Shown: positions 1,630 through 16,418 of the stretch, piece by piece
How positions within the stretch are numbered: position 1 is the stretch's first letter
Layout: every line of letters begins with the position of its first letter
Origin: a virus
DNA: 22,603 nt
Virus record (IMG/VR): IMGVR_UViG_3300037202_000071
Coordinates: 1 to 22,603 of that record
Direction: 5' to 3' (one strand)
Made by a program: the position numbers and the translations under genes
The notes under the pieces: model-generated
Database searches by the model: none
The model's input: only the letters and a program-made list of their open reading frames with translations
Told to the model about the DNA's origin: nothing

Positions 1630-3611
1630 ACTAAGCCCCCGAGTAGGTGTGATACATCATACCAATCGATTGTGGCAAGCCACGCCTCACAATCCCGGAT
1701 CCCGTAAGAAATTACAAGTCTCTTATGATTAGAGTGCCAAGCCAGACCAGCGGCAAACTCGATCTGCCGATCATGGAACAGAAACGCGGGACTGATCTGT
1801 CGCAATACGCCGGCCGTATCCCACCACACGAACCTGTGCTGATAATACCGCTTGCCGCCCGGCATAACGCGAGCCTCATGCACAAGTGCAATCCAGCCGC
1901 CTTTGAACGGGATCACCTGGGAGCCGCCGCTTAAGCGCTCAACCGCGTATGGCACGGGAACGCGCGGCGGTCGAACACCTTCGCTATCGATCGTTTCGCC
2001 TAACCGATATATCCACTTCAACCGGTCGCCCTCAGGCCACGGCATCCAGTTCTTTTCGTGCGCCCTCGGTTGGGACTGTATAACGTGCCACTGGGCCAGT
2101 CTGTAACCCGTAGTATGGGGCTCAACTCGGGCTAGTGTCTGTTCACACCATCCTTCTGCATTTAATTCCCGAACAGTCGATGATGTCCACATTTCTCCCT
2201 GCCACTCGAACAGGCGCATGTCTTCAAACCCTACCACTAAATTATACATAGGCGCAGGTAAATCGCCAGGCGGTAAAATTTCTATCGCCGTATTAACCCG
2301 TAAATCGTCCGTAAGCGCCACTAAATAGTTGCGCGTATGAATGGGATTGGTGCCATTTGCTTCACCGTTGGTACCCTTAATGAGGTATCGGCCAGCTTCA
2401 TCCATCGTGTAATTGACTGACCGGACAATTACGTACAGTCTGTCCCTGATCGTTGCAATCGACGGGTTCATCGCAATGTACCCGTCCTTCGGCGTAAAAT
2501 CAATACGCTTCGGCGTGAACGAGGAGCACAATTCTTTCAACGGCTGGATATAGTGGAACAGGTTGCTGCGCGCTAGTTCACGAGATCCCTCAGTAGCCCG
2601 TAGATCGATCGCAAGATCGCTACACATATGGTAGCCCTGTTTACGGTAGATAGGATTATAGAACGCACAGATCGCAAACTCCTCACGCAATCCAGTATGA
2701 TAGACATGATCGGTAACAAACAAACTATCAGACGGGTAAGGGATCTTCATCCCCTCTACTGAAAAGAGCAAGCTAGTTTTTTGCTCGCCTATCTCACGGT
2801 AGTATTTGGCTAAGTCATAGAGGGTTTCTGCGCGCGTCGGACGAAAGTTATATGCCACGAGCAGTTCTCGCACGAACCCATCTTTATCACCTAGGGCATT
2901 CAGGCAATGGGCATAATTCATGCGAGCGCTCCAGACTTCCTCGTCCCACCCGCCGGCATCGGCCCGGCGCTGATACATGCTCGCTGCAAGTTCCATCTGC
3001 CCTGCGTCCCGGTAGGACTGGGCTAAATAGTACATATAACGGCTATTGGTGGGCTCTTTCTTTAGAGCTGCACGAAGAAGCTTGATATCGCGCCGGAACT
3101 TGTCCTTTCGATTGGTACCGTCGGCATGATCGACGAAGAAAACTCCAGGCAGGTGCTCCGCGCCACCCACATCAAGATACTCATGGGTCACGCCAATGTA
3201 CAGACCTGTCTGGTCCCGACGCACAAGGCGGGTATTGAAATAGGAGGTGCCGCCGGCTTTCTGGATGACGTTGTAGGCAGGTGCGGTTAGCTTGTCACGA
3301 AACTGCTTGTCTATGACTTCCAGTACCATATCAGCATCAAGAAGGAAGAGATAGTCAAAAGACCAAGGAGAAGTCCGCGCAGCTTCAAGCCCAGCGTTGC
3401 GTGCTTGTTCGAAGTTAACGAACTGTACGTCCGTGATCGTACCGGCGATTGATTTCGCGGCGAAGAACGCTTCGATTGTTGCTTTGGTAGCATCTGTTGA
3501 CCCCGTGTCTACTATCGCATAACAGTCGATATAGGGTGCCACGCTCGCGAGGCACCGAACGATTTTGTCCGCTTCATTACGGACTATCATGTTTAATAGC
3601 AACTTAGCCAC
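1626..3611 (-). CDS. Three-part GT2 glycosyltransferase, TPR repeats and GH130-like beta-propeller
   Basis: 661 residues in three segments. Residues 1-150 are a GT-A fold family 2 glycosyltransferase: MIVRNEA at 8-14, VDTGSTD at 34-40, RNAGLE at 71-76 and the metal-binding LDADM at 91-95. Residues about 172-290 are TPR-like helical pairs (MYYLAQSYRDAGQMELAA; TLYDLAKYYREIGEQ). Residues about 345-655 resemble the five-bladed propeller of GH130-like glycosidase/phosphorylase proteins: AMNPSIA 380-386, GFEDMRLF 461-468, EKNWMPW 519-525, GGSQVIPF 562-569, SYGIRD 635-640. The transferase part probably transfers a sugar from an activated donor. The propeller may bind or cleave glycans, but its catalytic acid is not confirmed. 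It heads the glycan operon and its start overlaps the HNH gene by 8 nt. Start ATG at 3611 fits the conserved first strand (MAKLLLNMIVRNEA). Confidence 0.85.
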   Translation of the reverse strand: MAKLLLNMIVRNEADKIVRCLASVAPYIDCYAIVDTGSTDATKATIEAFFAAKSIAGTITDVQFVNFEQARNAGLEAARTSPWSFDYLFLLDADMVLEVIDKQFRDKLTAPAYNVIQKAGGTSYFNTRLVRRDQTGLYIGVTHEYLDVGGAEHLPGVFFVDHADGTNRKDKFRRDIKLLRAALKKEPTNSRYMYYLAQSYRDAGQMELAASMYQRRADAGGWDEEVWSARMNYAHCLNALGDKDGFVRELLVAYNFRPTRAETLYDLAKYYREIGEQKTSLLFSVEGMKIPYPSDSLFVTDHVYHTGLREEFAICAFYNPIYRKQGYHMCSDLAIDLRATEGSRELARSNLFHYIQPLKELCSSFTPKRIDFTPKDGYIAMNPSIATIRDRLYVIVRSVNYTMDEAGRYLIKGTNGEANGTNPIHTRNYLVALTDDLRVNTAIEILPPGDLPAPMYNLVVGFEDMRLFEWQGEMWTSSTVRELNAEGWCEQTLARVEPHTTGYRLAQWHVIQSQPRAHEKNWMPWPEGDRLKWIYRLGETIDSEGVRPPRVPVPYAVERLSGGSQVIPFKGGWIALVHEARVMPGGKRYYQHRFVWWDTAGVLRQISPAFLFHDRQIEFAAGLAWHSNHKRLVISYGIRDCEAWLATIDWYDVSHLLGGLV

Positions 3612-3975
3612 TATGGGCCTCCAAATACTCTGCTAACCTTCGCAGGTTTTGGATATCTTGTCGAGTGCCTTTCTTAGCAGAATGGTTACAATGCAAGCAG
3701 AGAATACCGCGTATGTTATCCTTTGTACATGGGAGTGGCCCACCATGATCGGTGTGCCACCCCATTTTACTGCCCGGCTTATCGGTCCCACACACAGCAC
3801 ACCGATATCCTTGAGAAGCAAAAAGTACGTCCCATTCAACCGGAGTAATCCCATATTTTTTGAAGCGGTGGTGACCGCGCATATACGTTTGCGTATGCTC
3901 CAAGTTGGCATCGCGCCATTTCTTAGAACTTGCTCGTGCAGCAGCTACGCGATCTTCACACGAATAAAAAGCCAT
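3604..3975 (-). CDS. HNH endonuclease of the recombination endonuclease VII type
   Basis: 123 residues. A basic N-terminal helix region leads into YGITPVEWDVLFASQGYRCA, then zinc ligands CAVCG (74-78), the HNH core WHTDHGG, and a second pair in IRGILCLHCN. This order is that of T4 endonuclease VII-like proteins (Endonuclease_7 family), which occur as free-standing homing-type nucleases between phage genes. All expected Cys and His residues are present, so it looks intact. It sits between the GT2 fusion and a collagen-like gene and overlaps the former by 8 nt. No strong ribosome site precedes the ATG. A similar gene lies at 5403-5753, so two such nucleases bracket the collagen-like pair. It could act as a mobile nuclease or assist recombination. 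Confidence 0.87.
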   Translation of the reverse strand: MAFYSCEDRVAAARASSKKWRDANLEHTQTYMRGHHRFKKYGITPVEWDVLFASQGYRCAVCGTDKPGSKMGWHTDHGGPLPCTKDNIRGILCLHCNHSAKKGTRQDIQNLRRLAEYLEAHSG

Positions 3976-4014: not shown

Positions 4015-4749
4015 CTAGCCGTGGCTGATTTTCAATGGACCGACGCCACCGGTTTGACTGCCCACGCCAGTGGCATAGAACGTGCCAGTTATGCCAGTTG
4101 GACCAGCAACACCGCGGCCTGTGGGACCCGAAAGGAAGTAGGTCGAAAGGACGGTCTGACCAGCATTGAAGACAGCACCCTCAATATGCGGATCCCCAAT
4201 TGGCGCAACGAAATAGGAACCAGTTGTCCCAACTGGACCCGGCAAGCCAGGGAGCCCAAGAGGACCAGTTATTCCGGTTGCACCAGCCGGGCCCGAGGGG
4301 CCGACCGCGCCGGCCGGACTAATACGAACCGGCCCAGTGGGCCCTGTTGCACCAGTTAGGCCGCCAGCACCGATAAACGTGGGACCCTGCGAACCTGCGG
4401 GGCCAATGGATGACCCGAACGGACCTTGCGCGCCAGTGACGCCAGGGCCAGTGGCGCCTGTGGCGCCTGTGGCGCCCTGTGGGCCTTGAAGACCCGGAAG
4501 GCCCGGATCACCTGTCCGGCCAACCGGGCCAACAAGAACATCGGCCGGGGGACCAGTGAGTTGCGGGCTCGCACCTGTTGGACCAGTAACCCCACCCAGC
4601 AGATCGGTGGGGCCCGTGGGGCCAGCGGTACCGAGTGGCCCGCTGATATTACCAGCGTTAATCCGGTCAACCACCCGCTTAAGAATGCTCGGAATACGCT
4701 CATCATCGTAGGTAGATGGGCGATCCGGATCAGGCTTAATCGAAGCCAT
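4015..4749 (-). CDS. Collagen-like protein A (Gly-X-Y repeats), putative virion fibre
   Basis: 244 residues. Residues 1-36 are non-repetitive and include an amphipathic helix ([16 protein letters not shown]). Residues about 37-200 are nearly continuous Gly-X-Y triplets rich in Pro and Thr (GPTGPTG type), with short interruptions. The C-terminus (about 200-244) is another mixed segment ending in [10 protein letters not shown]. Such proteins form triple-helical trimers; in phages they are usually tail fibre or head decoration components. The N-terminal helix matches that of the next gene (4768-5376), so the two are paralogues with a common anchor and different shafts. GAGAGGG precedes the start by about 7 nt. 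Assignment to the virion is an inference from family precedent. Confidence 0.85.
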
Positions 4750-4767
4750 TGGAAATCCCTCTCGTTA

Positions 4768-5376
4768 TTACGTACCTGGCCCTGCCGAAACAGTCAGCAC
4801 ACCAGCATTGAGCCAGACGGCGCCGGTAAGACCGGGGCTCGTGGTCTGCGGAATGAAGAGGTAGGACGGCGCAGGACCGGTTGCACCGGTGGCGCCTTGT
4901 CCACCAGTTGGACCTTGCCCAACCGGCCCTGTAGCGCCAGTGGGACCTTGTGCGCCGGTGGCCCCAGTATTACCGATGGGACCAGCCGGACCCACAGCAC
5001 CTGTACTGCCACCAGTTGGACCCTGGATACCGGTGACGCCAGGAGACGCGCCAGTGGTACCAGCGGGGCCAGTTGAACCCGCGGGGCCAGCCACAGCGGT
5101 CGGGCCGACGACACCAGCAGGACCGGTAGGACCCGTATTGCCTACGTTACCAGGAGCACCTTGTGAACCTTGAGCACCAACCGCGGGGCCAGTCGGACCC
5201 GTTGGACCCGTATTGCCGGCAGGGCCAACCGGGCCCGTAGTGCCACCAGTTGGACCCGTTGGCCCTAGACCACCAGTTGGACCACCAATGCCACCGGCAT
5301 TAACTGCGTCCACTACCTCTTTTAGGACCTCACCAATTCGGTTTCGGTCATAATCTTTGCTTGAGAGAATAGCCAT
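4768..5376 (-). CDS. Collagen-like protein B (Gly-X-Y repeats), paralogue of protein A
   Basis: 202 residues. N-terminal helix ([16 protein letters not shown], about residues 12-27), then GIGGPTGG leading into a long run of Gly-X-Y triplets with Thr in the Y position and Pro in X, and a non-repetitive C-terminal tip with aromatics and small residues ([20 protein letters not shown]). The shared N-terminal pattern (R-I-x3-L-K-x-V-V-D-x2-N-A-G-x-I) with protein A points to duplication and probably a common attachment site or trimerisation motif. The tip differs and could carry adhesion specificity. Many proline codons are CCA or CCG, the codons served by the tRNA at 14964-15040. A GAAGGG site lies about 10 nt upstream. 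Confidence 0.85.
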
Positions 5377-5402: not shown

Positions 5403-5753
5403 CTAGTCATTGATACCGTGAGTGTCTAAATATTTGATTAACGCCCTTAAATGAGCGGGGCGGTCCTTAACTTGCCCAAGGGCCACATTACATGGCTGGC
5501 AGATAATCCCCCGAACTACGTTAGAGGTATGGTCATGATCCACAACAAAACCCCACGTATTTCCCGGTTCAAGACTCCCGCAACAGGCACATTTATTATC
5601 CTGGGCACTAAACAATATGTTCCGTTCCTCAATTGTTATGTCATAATTTCCAACGTAGTGGCGCTTCCGGGCGTTAAAATTGATTGTGTCGCGGCCCTTT
5701 TCGACCTGGCATAACGTTGGTTTGCCGTTAACGCTCGCTCTTCTTTTGTCCAC
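5403..5753 (-). CDS. HNH endonuclease, recombination endonuclease VII type, short N-terminus
   Basis: 116 residues from a GTG start at 5753. The core is clear: [23 protein letters not shown] centre [20 protein letters not shown], and a helical C-terminus ([10 protein letters not shown]). The two CxxC pairs and the D-H-D-H motif match the endonuclease VII family. The frame stays open far upstream but only inside the portal gene, so I begin it just after the portal stop at 5758. No ATG is available near there, and GTG 5753 or TTG 5768 are the options. The upstream segment ([14 protein letters not shown]) lacks the usual first zinc pair, so the N-terminus may be shortened. It fits a mobile nuclease inserted between portal and fibre genes. 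Confidence 0.78.
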
Positions 5754-5757
5754 CGCT

Positions 5758-8034
5758 TCATCCAACACCACCTTTAACAGGCATAGCATTAGGACCGGGT
5801 TGATTGCCAACGACCGCGGTCTGTGGGCCCATCGATTGCGAGGTCTTACTGGCCTGATTTCCCTGGCCTTGAGCAGCCAAGTGGGAAAGATCGCCGGTCG
5901 GTGGCGCACCGCCGGGGGGAGCACCACCTGGCGGTGTTCCAATATGCACTGGGGGTCCCTCAGGCAGTCGGGCACGGGTCGCCAAGACACCGGCAGTGAG
6001 CTCCGTGGCGATCCGTTGAACACCAGCCTCGACACCCTTCTGAATGCCTTCTTCGACCTTCTGCTCAAGCGCCGCCTGATTACCTTGCGCCTGGGCATTC
6101 TTTTCATCACTAACCATTTTGTCGATATCTTGCTCATCGGGGACGATCTCTTCACCATCCAGGCCGACATTACTCGACACAGAGCGGAGAAGATTGGCAC
6201 GGCCCTTGATCCCCATGATCTTTTGGTCAACCGGGTTCATGGTATGCTGCAGGAGTTCAATCTGGCGCTGGCGCTGGGTTTCGCGCTGGATTGCAACGTT
6301 GACACCCTGGACACTGACCTCTTCTTCGCCGGTCAATAAACCCGAAGTATCAGTCAACAAAATCATATCAACCAATTGAAGCAATGAGTCTTCCACGACG
6401 TCACCGTCAATATTTGCACTGACCGTCTGCAATATCTTGGAAGCATTGCCCATCAGCATCGCCAGCCCGGAGGCCGTCCGGCCAGCTCCACCGCCCGCCT
6501 GTCCACCGACATATTTCGGTATCGCTGACACATCGTCCGCAATATCGACAAACTTTTGGAAGACCTCGATCAACGACTGGGCGTTCGAAGTCGGCATGAA
6601 GAACTTGATCGGATCCCCGACGTTGCTCCCCATCGGGTTGTCTACTACGTGCCATCGTTTCCATGCGTATAACTCCTCACCGTTTTCTTCCGGAGCCAGG
6701 CGGCTGTCGTTAACCACCACTTGCGGGCCCGAGGCAATCGACATGTTATTAACCAACGCACGAAGGGCGGCATTAGCCACTTCCTGAATGTCAGCGAGAA
6801 GATCGGATAACCCGTTGCCGATCGATGTCCCGGGAACTTTTTCGAAGGAAGTAATGAAATAAGGATGACGCTGCCGGGGGCTAGGGGAAAGATGCGCTTT
6901 AATGACGTGTGATCCGATAACCCATGCCTGGATATTATAATCTCGTAGCTCGTCAGGCACTCCGAGTCCGTACTCTTGAAGTACTCTTCCTTGAACATTC
7001 CCATTGAACTCCATCATGCTGATTAGACCCGACCGGTTCCACATCGGATTTTCGCGGCTCTCTAGTACCGCTCGTTCGGCGTCGGTCGTATCCCAGTTGT
7101 CATATAGACCGCCGCGGCCATATTCATCGAGTACAAGCCGGACCTCGTCGTGATTGTAGCCAGGCAGATCCAGCAGATCATTAATTTCAGCGCGCGTCAG
7201 GCGCAGCTTTTCGATCATATTTGCGTTTGCAATATCGGAGACACCGGGAGTCCACCACAGGTCGAAGGGGGACACACGGTTCCATGTCATCATCGGAGTT
7301 TGCTGGACAGTGGGTTGACCGCCACCATCCGGCCAGGTCACCTTAGGCATAACCTTAACGACGGGCCCCTTGATACAAGCGAACACGAAAATAGGCAGGT
7401 CAACCAAAAACTCGGCCAGAGCGTGGTACCAACCGCCATCCCGCAGGAGCTGTTCTATCTTGTCTTCGGAGTCCCGGGCCTGCTGGCCGGCTTTCTTTTT
7501 CGCGGCCTCTTTGGCGCTTTCCAAAAGAGCGGTCTTGCGTTCCTGGATCTGGTCTGGCGGCGGCGGTTTCCCACCTTGCCCCATTTGTTGTTCAGATTGG
7601 ATCAATTGGTCGATACTGGATAGGATCTGAGGCGGAATCTTCGGATCTTTTGGGGGGCGAAGGCCCCAGGGCTGATCCTGGCCCAGGTAGATATCCCGCA
7701 GCAAAGAGCTCGCCGCGCGGCACTTTTGAGCCGTAATACGGGCATATACAGCAGACCCGCCAAATTTCTTGATTTCTGCGAGTTTTGACGGACTGTACTG
7801 GCCATTGAACACCCGCAAGGCCTCAATCAGCCGATTTGACCAGCCGCCCTGGGTGTTTCTGTGGTTACGGAAGATCTCGTATTGACCTCTAATATAACTG
7901 GCCAAAGAAGAAATATCAGGCACCGGCGGGGCGTTCGCCGCAGCCTTGGCCGTTGCCTGCTGCTGGAGCTGCTGTTCAAGAGCGGCCGGTGGGATGACCT
8001 GGAGTACGCCTTGAGAACCTAGGGAGTCGGCCAT
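5758..8034 (-). CDS. Portal protein
   Basis: 758 residues from ATG 8034. An alternative ATG at 8076 adds 14 residues but has no ribosome site, while GAGG lies 4 nt before 8034. The portal is a dodecameric ring at the capsid vertex through which DNA is packaged. The N-terminal half has the conserved segment around YIRGQYEIFRNHRN and WSNRLIEALRVFNGQY. The middle has NRVSPFDLWWTPGVSDI and the clip/stem-like region FEKVPGTSIGNGLSDLLADI with RALVNNMSIASGPQVVVN, then YVGGQAGGGAGRTASGLAML, all typical of large podovirus-type portals. The C-terminus is Gln-rich, coiled and finally Pro/Gly-rich. It lies divergent from the terminase genes, whose first start is about 85 bp away. Confidence 0.88.
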   Translation of the reverse strand: MADSLGSQGVLQVIPPAALEQQLQQQATAKAAANAPPVPDISSLASYIRGQYEIFRNHRNTQGGWSNRLIEALRVFNGQYSPSKLAEIKKFGGSAVYARITAQKCRAASSLLRDIYLGQDQPWGLRPPKDPKIPPQILSSIDQLIQSEQQMGQGGKPPPPDQIQERKTALLESAKEAAKKKAGQQARDSEDKIEQLLRDGGWYHALAEFLVDLPIFVFACIKGPVVKVMPKVTWPDGGGQPTVQQTPMMTWNRVSPFDLWWTPGVSDIANANMIEKLRLTRAEINDLLDLPGYNHDEVRLVLDEYGRGGLYDNWDTTDAERAVLESRENPMWNRSGLISMMEFNGNVQGRVLQEYGLGVPDELRDYNIQAWVIGSHVIKAHLSPSPRQRHPYFITSFEKVPGTSIGNGLSDLLADIQEVANAALRALVNNMSIASGPQVVVNDSRLAPEENGEELYAWKRWHVVDNPMGSNVGDPIKFFMPTSNAQSLIEVFQKFVDIADDVSAIPKYVGGQAGGGAGRTASGLAMLMGNASKILQTVSANIDGDVVEDSLLQLVDMILLTDTSGLLTGEEEVSVQGVNVAIQRETQRQRQIELLQHTMNPVDQKIMGIKGRANLLRSVSSNVGLDGEEIVPDEQDIDKMVSDEKNAQAQGNQAALEQKVEEGIQKGVEAGVQRIATELTAGVLATRARLPEGPPVHIGTPPGGAPPGGAPPTGDLSHLAAQGQGNQASKTSQSMGPQTAVVGNQPGPNAMPVKGGVG

Positions 8035-13129: not shown

Positions 13130-13145
13130 ATACGCTATCGCGTAT
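13130..13145. promoter_or_regulatory. Palindromic operator candidate, copy 2
   Basis: ATACGC-TATC-GCGTAT, the same arms as copy 1. Its last base is the final base of the stop codon of the 90-residue collagen-like gene. A 27-bp period is between two and three helical turns, so two dimers could bind on nearly opposite faces of the DNA. Confidence 0.6.
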
Positions 13146-13417
13146 CAGAAAGGCGGTGACGGATACGAACGCGGCGGATGCTCATCCGCTTCATTGAACC
13201 ACGGCTTATCCGCGGGACGAACGGGACCCGTTGTACCGGTTACCCCATAAGGACCGGTTCGACCATCGGGCCGGTTATATGGCCCAGTTCGACCATAGGG
13301 CCCAGTATAACCATCGGGTCCTGGATGCTCGTGTGGACCCGCAAGCGGTGGCTCGTCGTGCAGATGTGACGCGAGCCGTTTGTCGTCTTTGGCATTCTGT
13401 TCAGGCTTTAGTGCCAT
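13145..13417 (-). CDS. Short collagen-like protein with Tyr/Arg-rich triplets
   Basis: 90 residues. N-terminus MALKPEQNAKDDKRLASHLH, then a Pro/Gly segment of about 45 residues with GYTGPYGRTGPYNRP-type triplets, and a non-repetitive Pro-rich end (HPPRSYPSPPF). Gly-X-Y registration is good but short and Tyr-rich, unlike proteins A and B at 4-5.4 kb. AGGAGG lies 5 nt before the ATG, giving a strong ribosome site. It directly precedes the regulator operator. A possible minor virion or adhesive protein; function unknown. Confidence 0.78.
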   Translation of the reverse strand: MALKPEQNAKDDKRLASHLHDEPPLAGPHEHPGPDGYTGPYGRTGPYNRPDGRTGPYGVTGTTGPVRPADKPWFNEADEHPPRSYPSPPF

Positions 13418-13616: not shown

Positions 13617-13970
13617 TCACGGGCCGGTAGCTCCAGTCGTACCAGTGGATGTCGCCACAGTAACCGCCGGCGGGGCCACCTTGTTCGCCTCGGCCACCAG
13701 GGCCGCGGTAACATCATCAACAGCAGTCTGCGCGGCAGCCAGAGCTGCCGGGTCGTTAGCCGCAATGGCAGCCGCTAATTGGGCGGATACCGCAGCGAGC
13801 TGCGTAGTGGCCGCAGTAGATGCGGCAAGCAGCACGTCGACGTCAGCAACCAGCTGAACCTCGGCCGCTGTCAGTTTCGAGACATCAATAGCCATGGCAG
13901 TAACCCTCCTGTGGATTTGACCTAACACGTCCATGATACGGTCGAAGTGATGCTCAGTAAAGTCAAACAT
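13617..13970 (-). CDS. Coiled-coil protein with a C-terminal mini collagen tail
   Basis: 117 residues from ATG 13970 (GAGAGGGAC just before it); an ATG at 14069 would overlap the previous gene by 47 nt. N-terminus MFDFTEHHFDRIMDVLGQIH is a helical oligomerisation-type segment, then a long Ala/Val/Thr-rich coiled coil (DVLLAASTAATTQLAAVSAQ onward). The end is a run of Thr/Ala/Gly (TGTTGATGP), the start of a collagen-like shaft. Small phage proteins of this style usually belong to fibre or head-associated structures; no exact family is recognised. A second ATG at 13895 with AGGAGGG upstream could yield a shorter form. Confidence 0.7.
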   Translation of the reverse strand: MFDFTEHHFDRIMDVLGQIHRRVTAMAIDVSKLTAAEVQLVADVDVLLAASTAATTQLAAVSAQLAAAIAANDPAALAAAQTAVDDVTAALVAEANKVAPPAVTVATSTGTTGATGP

Positions 13971-14022
13971 GTCCCTCTCCCGCATCGGTGAGTATGGACC
14001 ATATACCCGATAGATTAAGAAA

Positions 14023-14220
14023 TCATGTAAGAAAGTCGGTAGGCCTGGCGGTCGAGGAACGGAACTCATACCGCAGTTGATGCCCGACTATCTCCCAGCG
14101 CAGGACCGGGGTGCGGCCCCTGACTTCTGGCGACATATCGAAATGATCCGCCCTTAACCCATGTTTATCGGCATAGGCGTGCAGGGCTTGACGCAGAACG
14201 CTCTCGAGATCTTCAATCAT
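14023..14220 (-). CDS. Unknown protein, 65 residues
   Basis: Begins MIEDLESVLRQALHAYADKH (helix), then a short beta region (PVLRWEIVGHQLRYEFRSST). Start overlaps the stop of the gene upstream (ATGA at 14217-14220), and GGAG lies about 9 nt before it. The pattern of helix then beta hairpin is common in small phage proteins. No family recognised. Confidence 0.72.
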   Translation of the reverse strand: MIEDLESVLRQALHAYADKHGLRADHFDMSPEVRGRTPVLRWEIVGHQLRYEFRSSTARPTDFLT

Positions 14221-14711
14221 GGCAGATTCTCCAATAATTCGTGCAACAACCCCATTACCTGGAGCCGGCTTAACCGGGCCACATAGAACGGATACTGCTC
14301 TGTGCCGTCCGGTGCGAATTCAACTGTAGCCACAATGGCGGCTTGAGGATGAATATGACCCGCTTCGATCTGATGCACCAAATCCTTTAACATAGCCAGG
14401 GGGCTATCGTCAAGTGGTGGCCCGGACCCTACTGCATTAACGGCATCGCGCGTCATGTCCCCTGGCACCGCGAGCTGCTTGAGCCGCGGCTTACTGTTAA
14501 GATATGACCGGAGCTCTAGCAGTTCCTCATCGGTTAAGTGATAGCGCTTGATCCTGTCCCCGGCCGGCGCGGGATCACCCGGCAGACGAATCTTAAGCGG
14601 CGGCGGGCGCTTGCCAAACGGGATAACGTTGTCGCCGCCCTTATTGGGGCCGTCACCGCCAAAAAAATCAGGCGGAAGCGGTAGCTCCGGTGGTTCCTTG
14701 GACTTTGCCAT
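14217..14711 (-). CDS. Unknown protein, 164 residues, Pro-rich N-terminus
   Basis: The first 50 residues are Pro/Gly-rich and disordered (PPELPLPPDFFGG; IPFGKRPPPLKI). The middle is basic and helical (YHLTDEELLELRSYLN), and the C-terminal 60 residues look folded (PLAMLKDLVHQIEAGHIHPQ, then YPFYVARLSRLQVMGLLHEL). No membrane segment and no zinc pair. The overlap with the next start is 4 nt and with the previous gene's end 44 nt. The order of a disordered tail and compact end suggests an adaptor or inhibitor; nothing proves it. Confidence 0.72.
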   Translation of the reverse strand: MAKSKEPPELPLPPDFFGGDGPNKGGDNVIPFGKRPPPLKIRLPGDPAPAGDRIKRYHLTDEELLELRSYLNSKPRLKQLAVPGDMTRDAVNAVGSGPPLDDSPLAMLKDLVHQIEAGHIHPQAAIVATVEFAPDGTEQYPFYVARLSRLQVMGLLHELLENLP

Positions 14712-14963: not shown

Positions 14964-15040
14964 TGGTCGGGGTCCTAGGATTTAAACCTAGAACCTTCCG
15001 GTCCCAGGCCGGATGCTCTATCTGGTTGAGCTAGACCCCG
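14964..15040 (-). tRNA. tRNA-Pro (anticodon TGG)
   Basis: A 77-nt cloverleaf on the minus strand, with CCA encoded. All four stems are perfect: acceptor CGGGGTC/GACCCCG, D stem GCTC/GAGC, anticodon TCCGG/CCGGA and T stem CTAGG/CCTAG. C1-G72, A73 and anticodon TGG are proline identity elements. The anticodon loop is CCTGGGA, so position 33 is C where U is normal. The T loop is TTTAAAT with U at 56 instead of C, and the D loop (AACCAGATA) lacks the normal GG. The tRNA could help read the CCA and CCG codons in the phage's collagen-like genes. It may also work poorly, given the odd tertiary positions. Confidence 0.88.
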
Positions 15041-15053
15041 GATACCTTTCGTT

Positions 15054-15320
15054 TTATGTGTCCTCGAGCTCCTTGATCAGCTGGGTCGTTTTGATCTGGA
15101 TCGCGGCATCCGTCGACCATTTATCTATTTCCTCGGCGGTCATATCCTCCTTAACCGACACCCAGACGTATTTCTCCTTGCTCCCCGGATAAGTAAAGCA
15201 CATGCTGAACCACAGCGTATCGTCCCCGGGCATAGTGGAGAGCCGGCCTGGCCCCGTGGTATAATACGAAGGCAATTTCTGGTCGATCTCTGCCTGCATG
15301 ATTTCGGGGGTTATTTTCAT
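15054..15320 (-). CDS. Unknown protein, 88 residues, possibly related to the 16116-16418 protein
   Basis: ATG 15320 overlaps the stop of the Acb2-like gene (ATGA), so the longer frame upstream is rejected. Starts MKITPEIMQAEIDQ. Central beta region TLWFSMCFTYP...KYVWVSV, then a helix (MTAEEIDKWSTDAAIQI). The end (TTQLIKELED) resembles that of the 100-residue gene at 16116 (SSIKELADDE) after a similar beta-helix pattern. It is directly downstream of the Acb2-like gene in the same overlapping chain, a position that makes another anti-defence role possible but unproven. Confidence 0.78.
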   Translation of the reverse strand: MKITPEIMQAEIDQKLPSYYTTGPGRLSTMPGDDTLWFSMCFTYPGSKEKYVWVSVKEDMTAEEIDKWSTDAAIQIKTTQLIKELEDT

Positions 15321-15535
15321 CGCGGCGCGCCGTCCGGATGGCGGGTTATAGCCACATTGATCCACATAGCCAAACTCCGAAGCGAGCGAATAATGTAGGT
15401 CTTATCTGGGCCATTGGGCAGGTTATTCTCGAGCTTGCCGGCATAATCCGCCGTGGCCTTGCGCAGATGGGCCATTTGCTGGAGTTGGGTATCCGAGGGT
15501 TTCAGATAGTCAAATGTCGACGGGGATAAGCTCAT
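15317..15535 (-). CDS. Acb2/Tad1 hairpin-family protein (putative anti-CBASS nucleotide sponge)
   Basis: 72 residues from ATG 15535. This start overlaps the previous stop (ATGA), and GAGG lies 6 nt before it. Residues near FDYLKPSDTQLQQMAHLRKA (about 8-27) and LPNGPDKTYIIRSLRSLAMW (about 39-58) followed by INVAITR match the pattern of Acb2-family proteins: an FxYxxP entry, an Arg-rich helix, LP-(x)G-x-D/E-K, a long second helix with a W near its end, then N-x-A-I-A/T-R. Family members bind and sequester cyclic oligonucleotides and so block CBASS (and related) signalling. The recognition is by motif order rather than by search, and ligand range is unknown. Downstream and upstream genes overlap it, so the trio is co-expressed. 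Confidence 0.72.
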   Translation of the reverse strand: MSLSPSTFDYLKPSDTQLQQMAHLRKATADYAGKLENNLPNGPDKTYIIRSLRSLAMWINVAITRHPDGAPR

Positions 15536-15909
15536 GTTGGCCTCACCACTATCAGTTTGGCACCCAGCCGGGTGCAAGGTAGATACTTATCAATGGTCAT
15601 TTTCCACGTAAGCGCTCCGGAGGCCCCTATTTCATAGGCCATTTCTCGCACGACCTGCTGTTTTACATAGTTCATATAGATGTCCGGGGGCGCATTGAGA
15701 TATTTAACCTCGTCGTTAATGGCCGCTGTTGACTGCAGCACCTGGATCCGGGCCTTTGCGATAACCTCAAATCCGGCCTCCCGGCAAATCTCTTTTGCCG
15801 TTTGGAGCCGGGACGCGCCATGGGGAAGCCCCGTCACTTTGTGAGAAATAGGCCCGGAGAACCCGTGCTGGGCCTCGGTGAACTCGACCACATCTTTCGC
15901 GGTTGGCAT
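15532..15909 (-). CDS. Unknown protein, 125 residues
   Basis: Starts MPTAKDVVEFTEAQHGFSGP. Mixed helix and beta: HKVTGLPHGASRLQTAKEIC, then EAGFEVIAKARIQVLQSTAA, YMNYVKQQVVREMAYEIGAS and a beta end (LTWKMTIDKYLPCTRLGAKL). No catalytic motif stands out. AGGTGA lies 6 nt before the ATG. Overlaps the Acb2-like start by 4 nt. Its place beside an anti-defence candidate makes it worth testing as an inhibitor, but there is no sequence proof. Confidence 0.78.
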   Translation of the reverse strand: MPTAKDVVEFTEAQHGFSGPISHKVTGLPHGASRLQTAKEICREAGFEVIAKARIQVLQSTAAINDEVKYLNAPPDIYMNYVKQQVVREMAYEIGASGALTWKMTIDKYLPCTRLGAKLIVVRPT

Positions 15910-15913
15910 AATG

Positions 15914-16138
15914 TCACCTGCAGGCGACGTTTGCCGCTATTTCCGCGTCGGTGCAGTTCAGTTTACCCCGCGGGCCGTTGTTGATGCCGCTAAAATAGAG
16001 GCCCACCCCGATCATGATCAGGAGGATCAGGATCAGCAGTCCAGTGTAACTCTTGGGCTTTTTTGGCAGTTTCGTGGCCATGCGGAATTTCGCGGGGCTA
16101 GACTTGGTGTTAAACCTAGGATATTTTCGCTTCGTCAT
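15914..16138 (-). CDS. Small single-span membrane protein, 74 residues
   Basis: A basic N-terminus (MTKRKYPRFNTKSS..., about residues 1-30) precedes one hydrophobic helix at about 31-50 (YTGLLILILLIMIGVGLYF). A short outside-type tail follows with two Cys (NCTDAEIAANVAC). Positive residues before the helix predict N-in, C-out topology, and the Cys pair could form a disulphide in the periplasm. AAGGAG lies 8 nt before the ATG, and the start overlaps the previous gene by 23 nt. It could be a superinfection-exclusion or membrane-modifying protein; no family is recognised. Confidence 0.72.
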   Translation of the reverse strand: MTKRKYPRFNTKSSPAKFRMATKLPKKPKSYTGLLILILLIMIGVGLYFSGINNGPRGKLNCTDAEIAANVACR

Positions 16139-16418
16139 CTGCTAACTCCTTGATACTGCTGGTGGTATACCCTCTAATTTTAGTAATGGCCACGTCGAGC
16201 CAGTCGTCCATATCCTTGCCCGATATTTTGCTCACAAAATAAATATAGTGGGCGTGGGGGTCGAACCCGGTCACTATCAGCATCTTAAAGACCTTTTCTG
16301 TGCCCTTGCTGGTGTGAATGAGCTGCAGCATCGGGTTCCGGCACGAATAGGCAGCGCCCAGCTTTGTCTGTACAACCATGCCAATATCGGTGGCCGTGAG
16401 ATCGTCGTACTTTGCCAT
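16116..16418 (-). CDS. Unknown protein, 100 residues, possible paralogue of the 15054-15320 protein
   Basis: Starts MAKYDDLTATDIGMVVQTKL. Beta-rich middle (PMLQLIHTSKGTEKVFKMLI) and a helix (MDDWLDVAITKIRGY), ending TTSSIKELADDEAKIS. The C-terminal half resembles the 15054-15320 product. AAGG lies 8 nt before the ATG. The leader upstream shares a CCACTTGACAACC and GGTAAAAAGGTC motif with the leader of the gene at 16431-16670 (see the repeat entries). Function unknown. Confidence 0.76.
   Translation of the reverse strand: MAKYDDLTATDIGMVVQTKLGAAYSCRNPMLQLIHTSKGTEKVFKMLIVTGFDPHAHYIYFVSKISGKDMDDWLDVAITKIRGYTTSSIKELADDEAKIS

Follow-up and report, generated by a model that had tools for sequence, protein, structure and literature searches.

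A small gene in a 22,603-base stretch of viral DNA, which is a whole virus record and is referred to here as the window, raises the question of whether its product is a sponge for cyclic nucleotide signals and, if so, whether it has kept the binding pocket of the sponges already known. The gene is Acb2-like (PF24729) on the evidence of the family profile and of its relatives, and is a candidate for such a sponge. It lies at 15317-15535 on the minus strand, a detail absent from the original prediction, and consists of 72 codons and a stop, with the ATG at 15535-15533 and the TGA at 15319-15317. The motifs FDYLKP, LPNGPDK, and INVAITR that had been read in its 72-residue product are all there. 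A GGTGAGG stretch stands ahead of the ATG, and the gene overlaps both its upstream neighbor (15532-15909) and its downstream neighbor (15054-15320) by ATGA, confirming the proposed chaining to two adjoining genes.

That this frame is a real gene under selection is evident from its relatives. A scan of viral contigs with 14 sequences recovered at least 292 relatives of the window protein (P0001), and mismatches between its gene and ten relatives fall on codon positions 1, 2, and 3 at 34%, 20%, and 62%, a pattern from which it follows that the minus frame encodes a protein under purifying selection. The plus strand also carries an open frame across this region (15338-15529, open for 63 codons); nevertheless, given the relatives and codon-position bias of the minus frame, the notion that the latter is a chance ORF, or that the plus-strand ORF is the true gene, has next to no probability and was rejected. 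In an alignment of 70 distinct sequences taken from the extracted relatives, the window protein included, approximately one-third of the positions of P0001 are at least 95% conserved.

Scored alone against Pfam, P0001 has a sole match, to PF24729 (Acb2/Tad1 hairpin), which spans the whole profile (2-58 of 58) at 18.1 bits (E = 0.0031), under the curated cut-off of 27 bits; it also matches phrog_1454, a family of unknown function, at E = 2.6e-8. Every one of the 14 sequences in alignment A1, the close subfamily (54-65% identical to P0001), is matched by PF24729. Of ten relatives scored one at a time, six exceed the cut-off (L012 at 41.0 bits, L008 at 40.7, L217 at 38.8, L033 at 34.7, L031 at 31.5, and L069 at 29.9), the best of them with 41 bits and E = 2.3e-10, while the other four fall below it. 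Two proteins verified as sponges (PMC10097602, PMC12043709) are recognized by this model as well, T4 Vs.4/Acb2 at 71.4 bits and Pseudomonas phage Acb2 at 66.5 bits. The assignment to the Acb2/Tad1 family that had been proposed is therefore supported, a significant profile match being obtained with the relatives, although the window protein by itself stays under the cut-off.

The nearest relatives among annotated phages are short PF24729 proteins of Gordonia, Arthrobacter, Lactococcus, and Paenibacillus phages (such as Syleon gp102 and LILY_72), which score 55-90 bits against PF24729 and are 27-30% identical to P0001 over most of their length. The order FxY...R...LPxG...MW.N.AI.R is common to both, whereas the turn reads 'GREKSLAIT.LEEA' in these proteins and 'GPDKTYILR..R..A' in P0001, and the DGxPR tail is found in P0001 only. 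When P0001 and two relatives were combined with five such intermediate phage proteins, the resulting profile matched the solved 'Acb2 homolog 43' (9ptq) at E = 6.7e-8, and its matches to Tad1 and Vs.4 were below significance. The turn and second helix of this 76-residue homolog, 'LPEGREKS...T.LEEAMFFA', resemble 'LPNGPDKTYIIRSLRSLAMWIN' in P0001; it lacks the helix-2 Trp and Asn, however, and is matched only by the profile that includes the intermediates. Direct comparison of the subfamily profile with a profile of relatives of the verified Acb2s is weak in hhalign (probability 9%, E = 0.0035, first helix only) and in HMMER, neither P0001 nor A1 found an Acb2 or Tad1 when searched against PDB sequences, and a search of NCBIfam gave no match. 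Given that P0001 is below the cut-off and that the bridging proteins and relatives score well, membership of the superfamily is supported at the level of sequence through the intermediates, not through P0001 alone. P0001 is thus a divergent member of an already known family rather than a new system; genes of the Acb2 family have already been annotated for many phages (e.g., PMC13348362, PMC11953737). Structures such as 9ptq, for which no paper was found, suggest that a survey of Acb2 homologues is apparently under way, and no assay of the P0001 subfamily was found in the open-licence literature.

The AlphaFold2 monomer, modeled with a 14-row alignment, is a two-helix hairpin (helices 15-38 and 43-65, pLDDT 85.6) with a short N-terminal segment, a helix turn at 9-11, and no strand or beta-sheet. 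Aligned with the residues described for Vs.4 (PMC10097602), the N-terminal segment F8-K26 (15458-15514, minus strand) holds Y10, the helix cap S14, and R25; positions at least 95% conserved in this part of the protein are T7, Y10, L11, P13, Q17, M21, R25, and G42. The second helix, P43-R65 (15341-15409, minus strand) according to the alignment and the model, carries the near-invariant D44, K45, T46, R50, R53, M57, W58, N60, V61, T64, and R65, which, along with A56, also reach the 95% level. The C-terminal tail H66-R72 (15320-15340, minus strand) is specific to the subfamily and has low pLDDT, and its D68, G69, P71, and R72 are 97-100% conserved. In the VIA list, the top row is Vs.4 (Z 7.0, rmsd 3.9, 65 residues), and Acb2 (8h2x) has a Z of 6.0, values that unrelated hairpins nearly reach; hence, the comparison of predicted folds agrees with the Acb2 family without proving membership. 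Foldseek found no PDB entry at E <= 0.001 for the model, a null result that is common for two-helix hairpins.

Among proteins of known structure, T4 Vs.4 (PDB 7uq2) shares with P0001 the PF24729 domain, the hairpin with its short N-terminal segment, the Tyr, Ser/Thr cap, and basic residue at Y8/T12/K23, and the Met-Trp of helix 2; it differs in having a longer hairpin turn and no DGxPR tail, and the two are 13% identical. In Vs.4, Y8 and F82 stack on cGAMP, Y8, H11, K23, and R79 form hydrogen bonds or salt bridges with it, and T12 caps the helix (PMC10097602). Y10 of P0001 stands at the place of the stacking Tyr (Y8 in Vs.4, Y11 in Acb2) and is Tyr in 98% of the 70 sequences, R25 stands at that of K23 in Vs.4 and K26 in Acb2 (98% Arg, a different residue of the same charge), and S/T14 takes the position of the T12 cap. 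The spacing of Y10 and R25, 15 residues, equals that of Y8 and K23 in Vs.4 and of Tyr11 and Lys26 in Pseudomonas phage Acb2 ('p26'; 8h2j/8h2x/8ixz), which has PF24729 and the Ser cap as well, and differs from P0001 in its longer hairpin turn and, again, in an identity of 13%.

The remaining Vs.4 positions, H11, R79, and F82, are occupied by P13, V61, and T64 in P0001. Since the verified Pseudomonas Acb2 has Leu and Ala at the places of H11 and F82, and so, like P0001, no aromatic residue at the latter, these two are not defining. The helix-2 Arg, by comparison, is common to both verified sponges (R79 in Vs.4, R85 in Acb2) and is replaced in P0001, where, with Met-Trp fixing an ungapped alignment, V61 takes its place and the invariant R65 lies one turn beyond. 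As the intermediate PF24729 proteins likewise lack this Arg, it does not define the Pfam family; its replacement does mean that P0001 does not preserve the Vs.4 pocket intact. What the subfamily has instead are the near-invariant N60, T64, and R65 and the DGxPR tail. From these residues we infer a putative nucleotide pocket with a changed preference, and because two Vs.4 pocket residues are replaced, P0001 and Vs.4 probably do not have exactly the same ligand.

With these data taken together, P0001 would be a cyclic-nucleotide sponge of a divergent Acb2 type, directed against CBASS or a similar signaling defense, a reading to which we give a probability of roughly two in three (0.66). Its oligomerization, ligand binding, and anti-defense effect are all proposed by analogy with Vs.4 and Pseudomonas Acb2: the chain would fold into a short N-terminal segment and a two-helix hairpin, the chains would assemble, probably into a hexamer, and cyclic oligonucleotide alarm signals would be bound between the subunits, such that CBASS or a related signaling defense could not trigger its effector during infection. 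A much less probable variant is a sponge chiefly for another signal, namely a Thoeris cyclic ADP-ribose isomer or a cyclic tri- or tetranucleotide in place of cyclic dinucleotides, with V61 and T64 and the invariant N60, R65, and DGxPR forming a different pocket. The absence of the invariant N60, R65, and tail from Vs.4 speaks for it, as does Tad1 (7uav, 8smd, 8kbe), which binds gcADPR besides cyclic nucleotides (PMC12043709), has the same Pfam domain in a C-terminal helical hairpin, and carries 'MWMN' in helix 2; in 7uav and 8kbe, 'ALMWMN' aligns with 'AMWIN' of P0001 under profile A3, at a non-significant E of 0.5. Nonetheless, Y10 and R25, positions of the dinucleotide pocket, are kept, and Tad1 places an antiparallel beta-sheet ahead of its hairpin (PMC12043709), giving solved chains of 123-138 residues, whereas P0001 has no such domain.

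The weak direct similarity to the verified sponges and the two replaced pocket residues would also suit a hairpin of the same fold that has lost nucleotide binding and plays another phage role, such as in assembly, in regulation, or in binding a host protein; in diverse phages, relatives of the gene also often have packaging or replication genes close by. This we regard as improbable in view of the Pfam link to PF24729 and of the strong conservation of the polar residues R25, D44, K45, T46, R50, R53, N60, T64, and R65, which is more like that of a binding site than of a scaffold alone; an essential structural part is unlikely too, as the gene is missing from the equivalent slot in close relatives. 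If P0001 is a sponge of the divergent Acb2 type, a great many environmental phages (the 292 relatives from one scan) would have counter-defense of this type, and, since the pocket Tyr and the basic residue are kept and two others replaced, the subfamily offers a clean residue-level test of ligand choice in the hairpin fold. It is a rather unlikely further proposal that proteins with the pattern HxSTFxYLKPT...GPDKT...R..R..AMWxNVAITR.PDGxPR form a large sponge subfamily capturing a nucleotide not preferred by known Acb2; were it true, the rebuilt pocket would point to an unrecognized or little-studied alarm signal in environmental host bacteria. The general picture of phage CBASS evasion is unchanged by P0001.

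The surroundings of the gene form a slot of variable content. Its edges are two fixed genes on the minus strand, 16116-16418 (predicted helix-3 strands-helix) and 14217-14711, both of which are kept in the related loci L214, L215, and L216. Between them, the closest related phage, L216, has an Acb2-like gene, shortly followed, as in the window, by a relative of the 15054-15320 gene, and other small genes, whereas in L214 and L215 the Acb2-like gene is missing and a small membrane-type protein is encoded there. The Acb2-like gene therefore occupies a slot of gain and loss, as expected of accessory counter-defense, which it fits without proving it. The other members of the window's slot, all on the minus strand, are the ATGA-coupled 15054-15320 gene (88 aa), a probable paralog of the 16116-16418 gene; the likewise coupled 15532-15909 gene (125 aa), an orphan with no family match or relative in profile and viral-contig scans; and 15914-16138 (74 aa), a small single-membrane-span-like protein with a weak L216 relative elsewhere in the slot. 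Other small slot genes, at 895-1074 in L215 and at 3522-3707 and 4078-4332 in L216, are candidates for accessory functions; they encode membrane-type proteins and, in L216, a 62-residue protein overlapping the Acb2-like gene at its end.

The claims that these genes mark an anti-defense island and that those starting at 15054, 15532, 15914, and 16116 are candidate partners or new inhibitors are not supported: the neighbors lack family matches, have few or no relatives, and differ between phages. Clustering of 1024 neighbor ORFs from 84 loci yielded no constant neighbor, which rejects a conserved partner gene; the most frequent cluster, of a terminase-like ORF, was present at 12 of the 84 loci. 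Relatives of 15054 and 16116 are kept together in only one of 87 loci, L015, which lies on the same contig as L216; the 15054 relative there came from locus comparison, and a direct scan of viral contigs gave no relatives of 15054 or 15532. The products of 15054-15320 and 16116-16418 look like paralogs (25% identity, pairwise E = 0.004; hhalign E = 0.014 with low probability), and their predicted fold had no significant match in PDB or BFVD. A tRNA-Pro(TGG) at 14964-15040 (minus strand) lies 13 bases past the end of the 15054 gene, a tRNA-Pro abuts the Acb2-like gene in L069, and a tRNA cluster encloses the PF24729 gene of Gordonia phages Syleon and Octobien14; a fixed tRNA is not the rule, since just 3 of the 87 loci have one no more than 3 kb away.

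Among the proteins encoded in the window are a portal-like protein, the large subunit of a terminase, and an exonuclease of the polymerase type. Since the terminase shares 50% identity with those of RHph_TM3_14A and related Rhizobium phages, the host is likely an alphaproteobacterium. A close relative of the Acb2-like gene is found in a prophage of a Rhizobiales genome, between the DnaB and terminase genes. While that genome had no SMODS match, 17 of the 151 genomes of its family contain CD-NTase (SMODS) genes that score above the cut-off, so that the target pathway is present in plausible hosts. Elsewhere in the window, an Endonuclease VII-like (HNH) protein is encoded at 3604-3975 (minus strand), and a similar second zinc-motif stretch lies in another frame at the end of ORF 5403-6230 (minus strand), behind the portal gene. 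Collagen-like GPTGPTG repeats occur in several predicted proteins, at 4015-5376 (minus strand), 13145-13417, and 13617-14069, near the portal gene and near an HTH gene.
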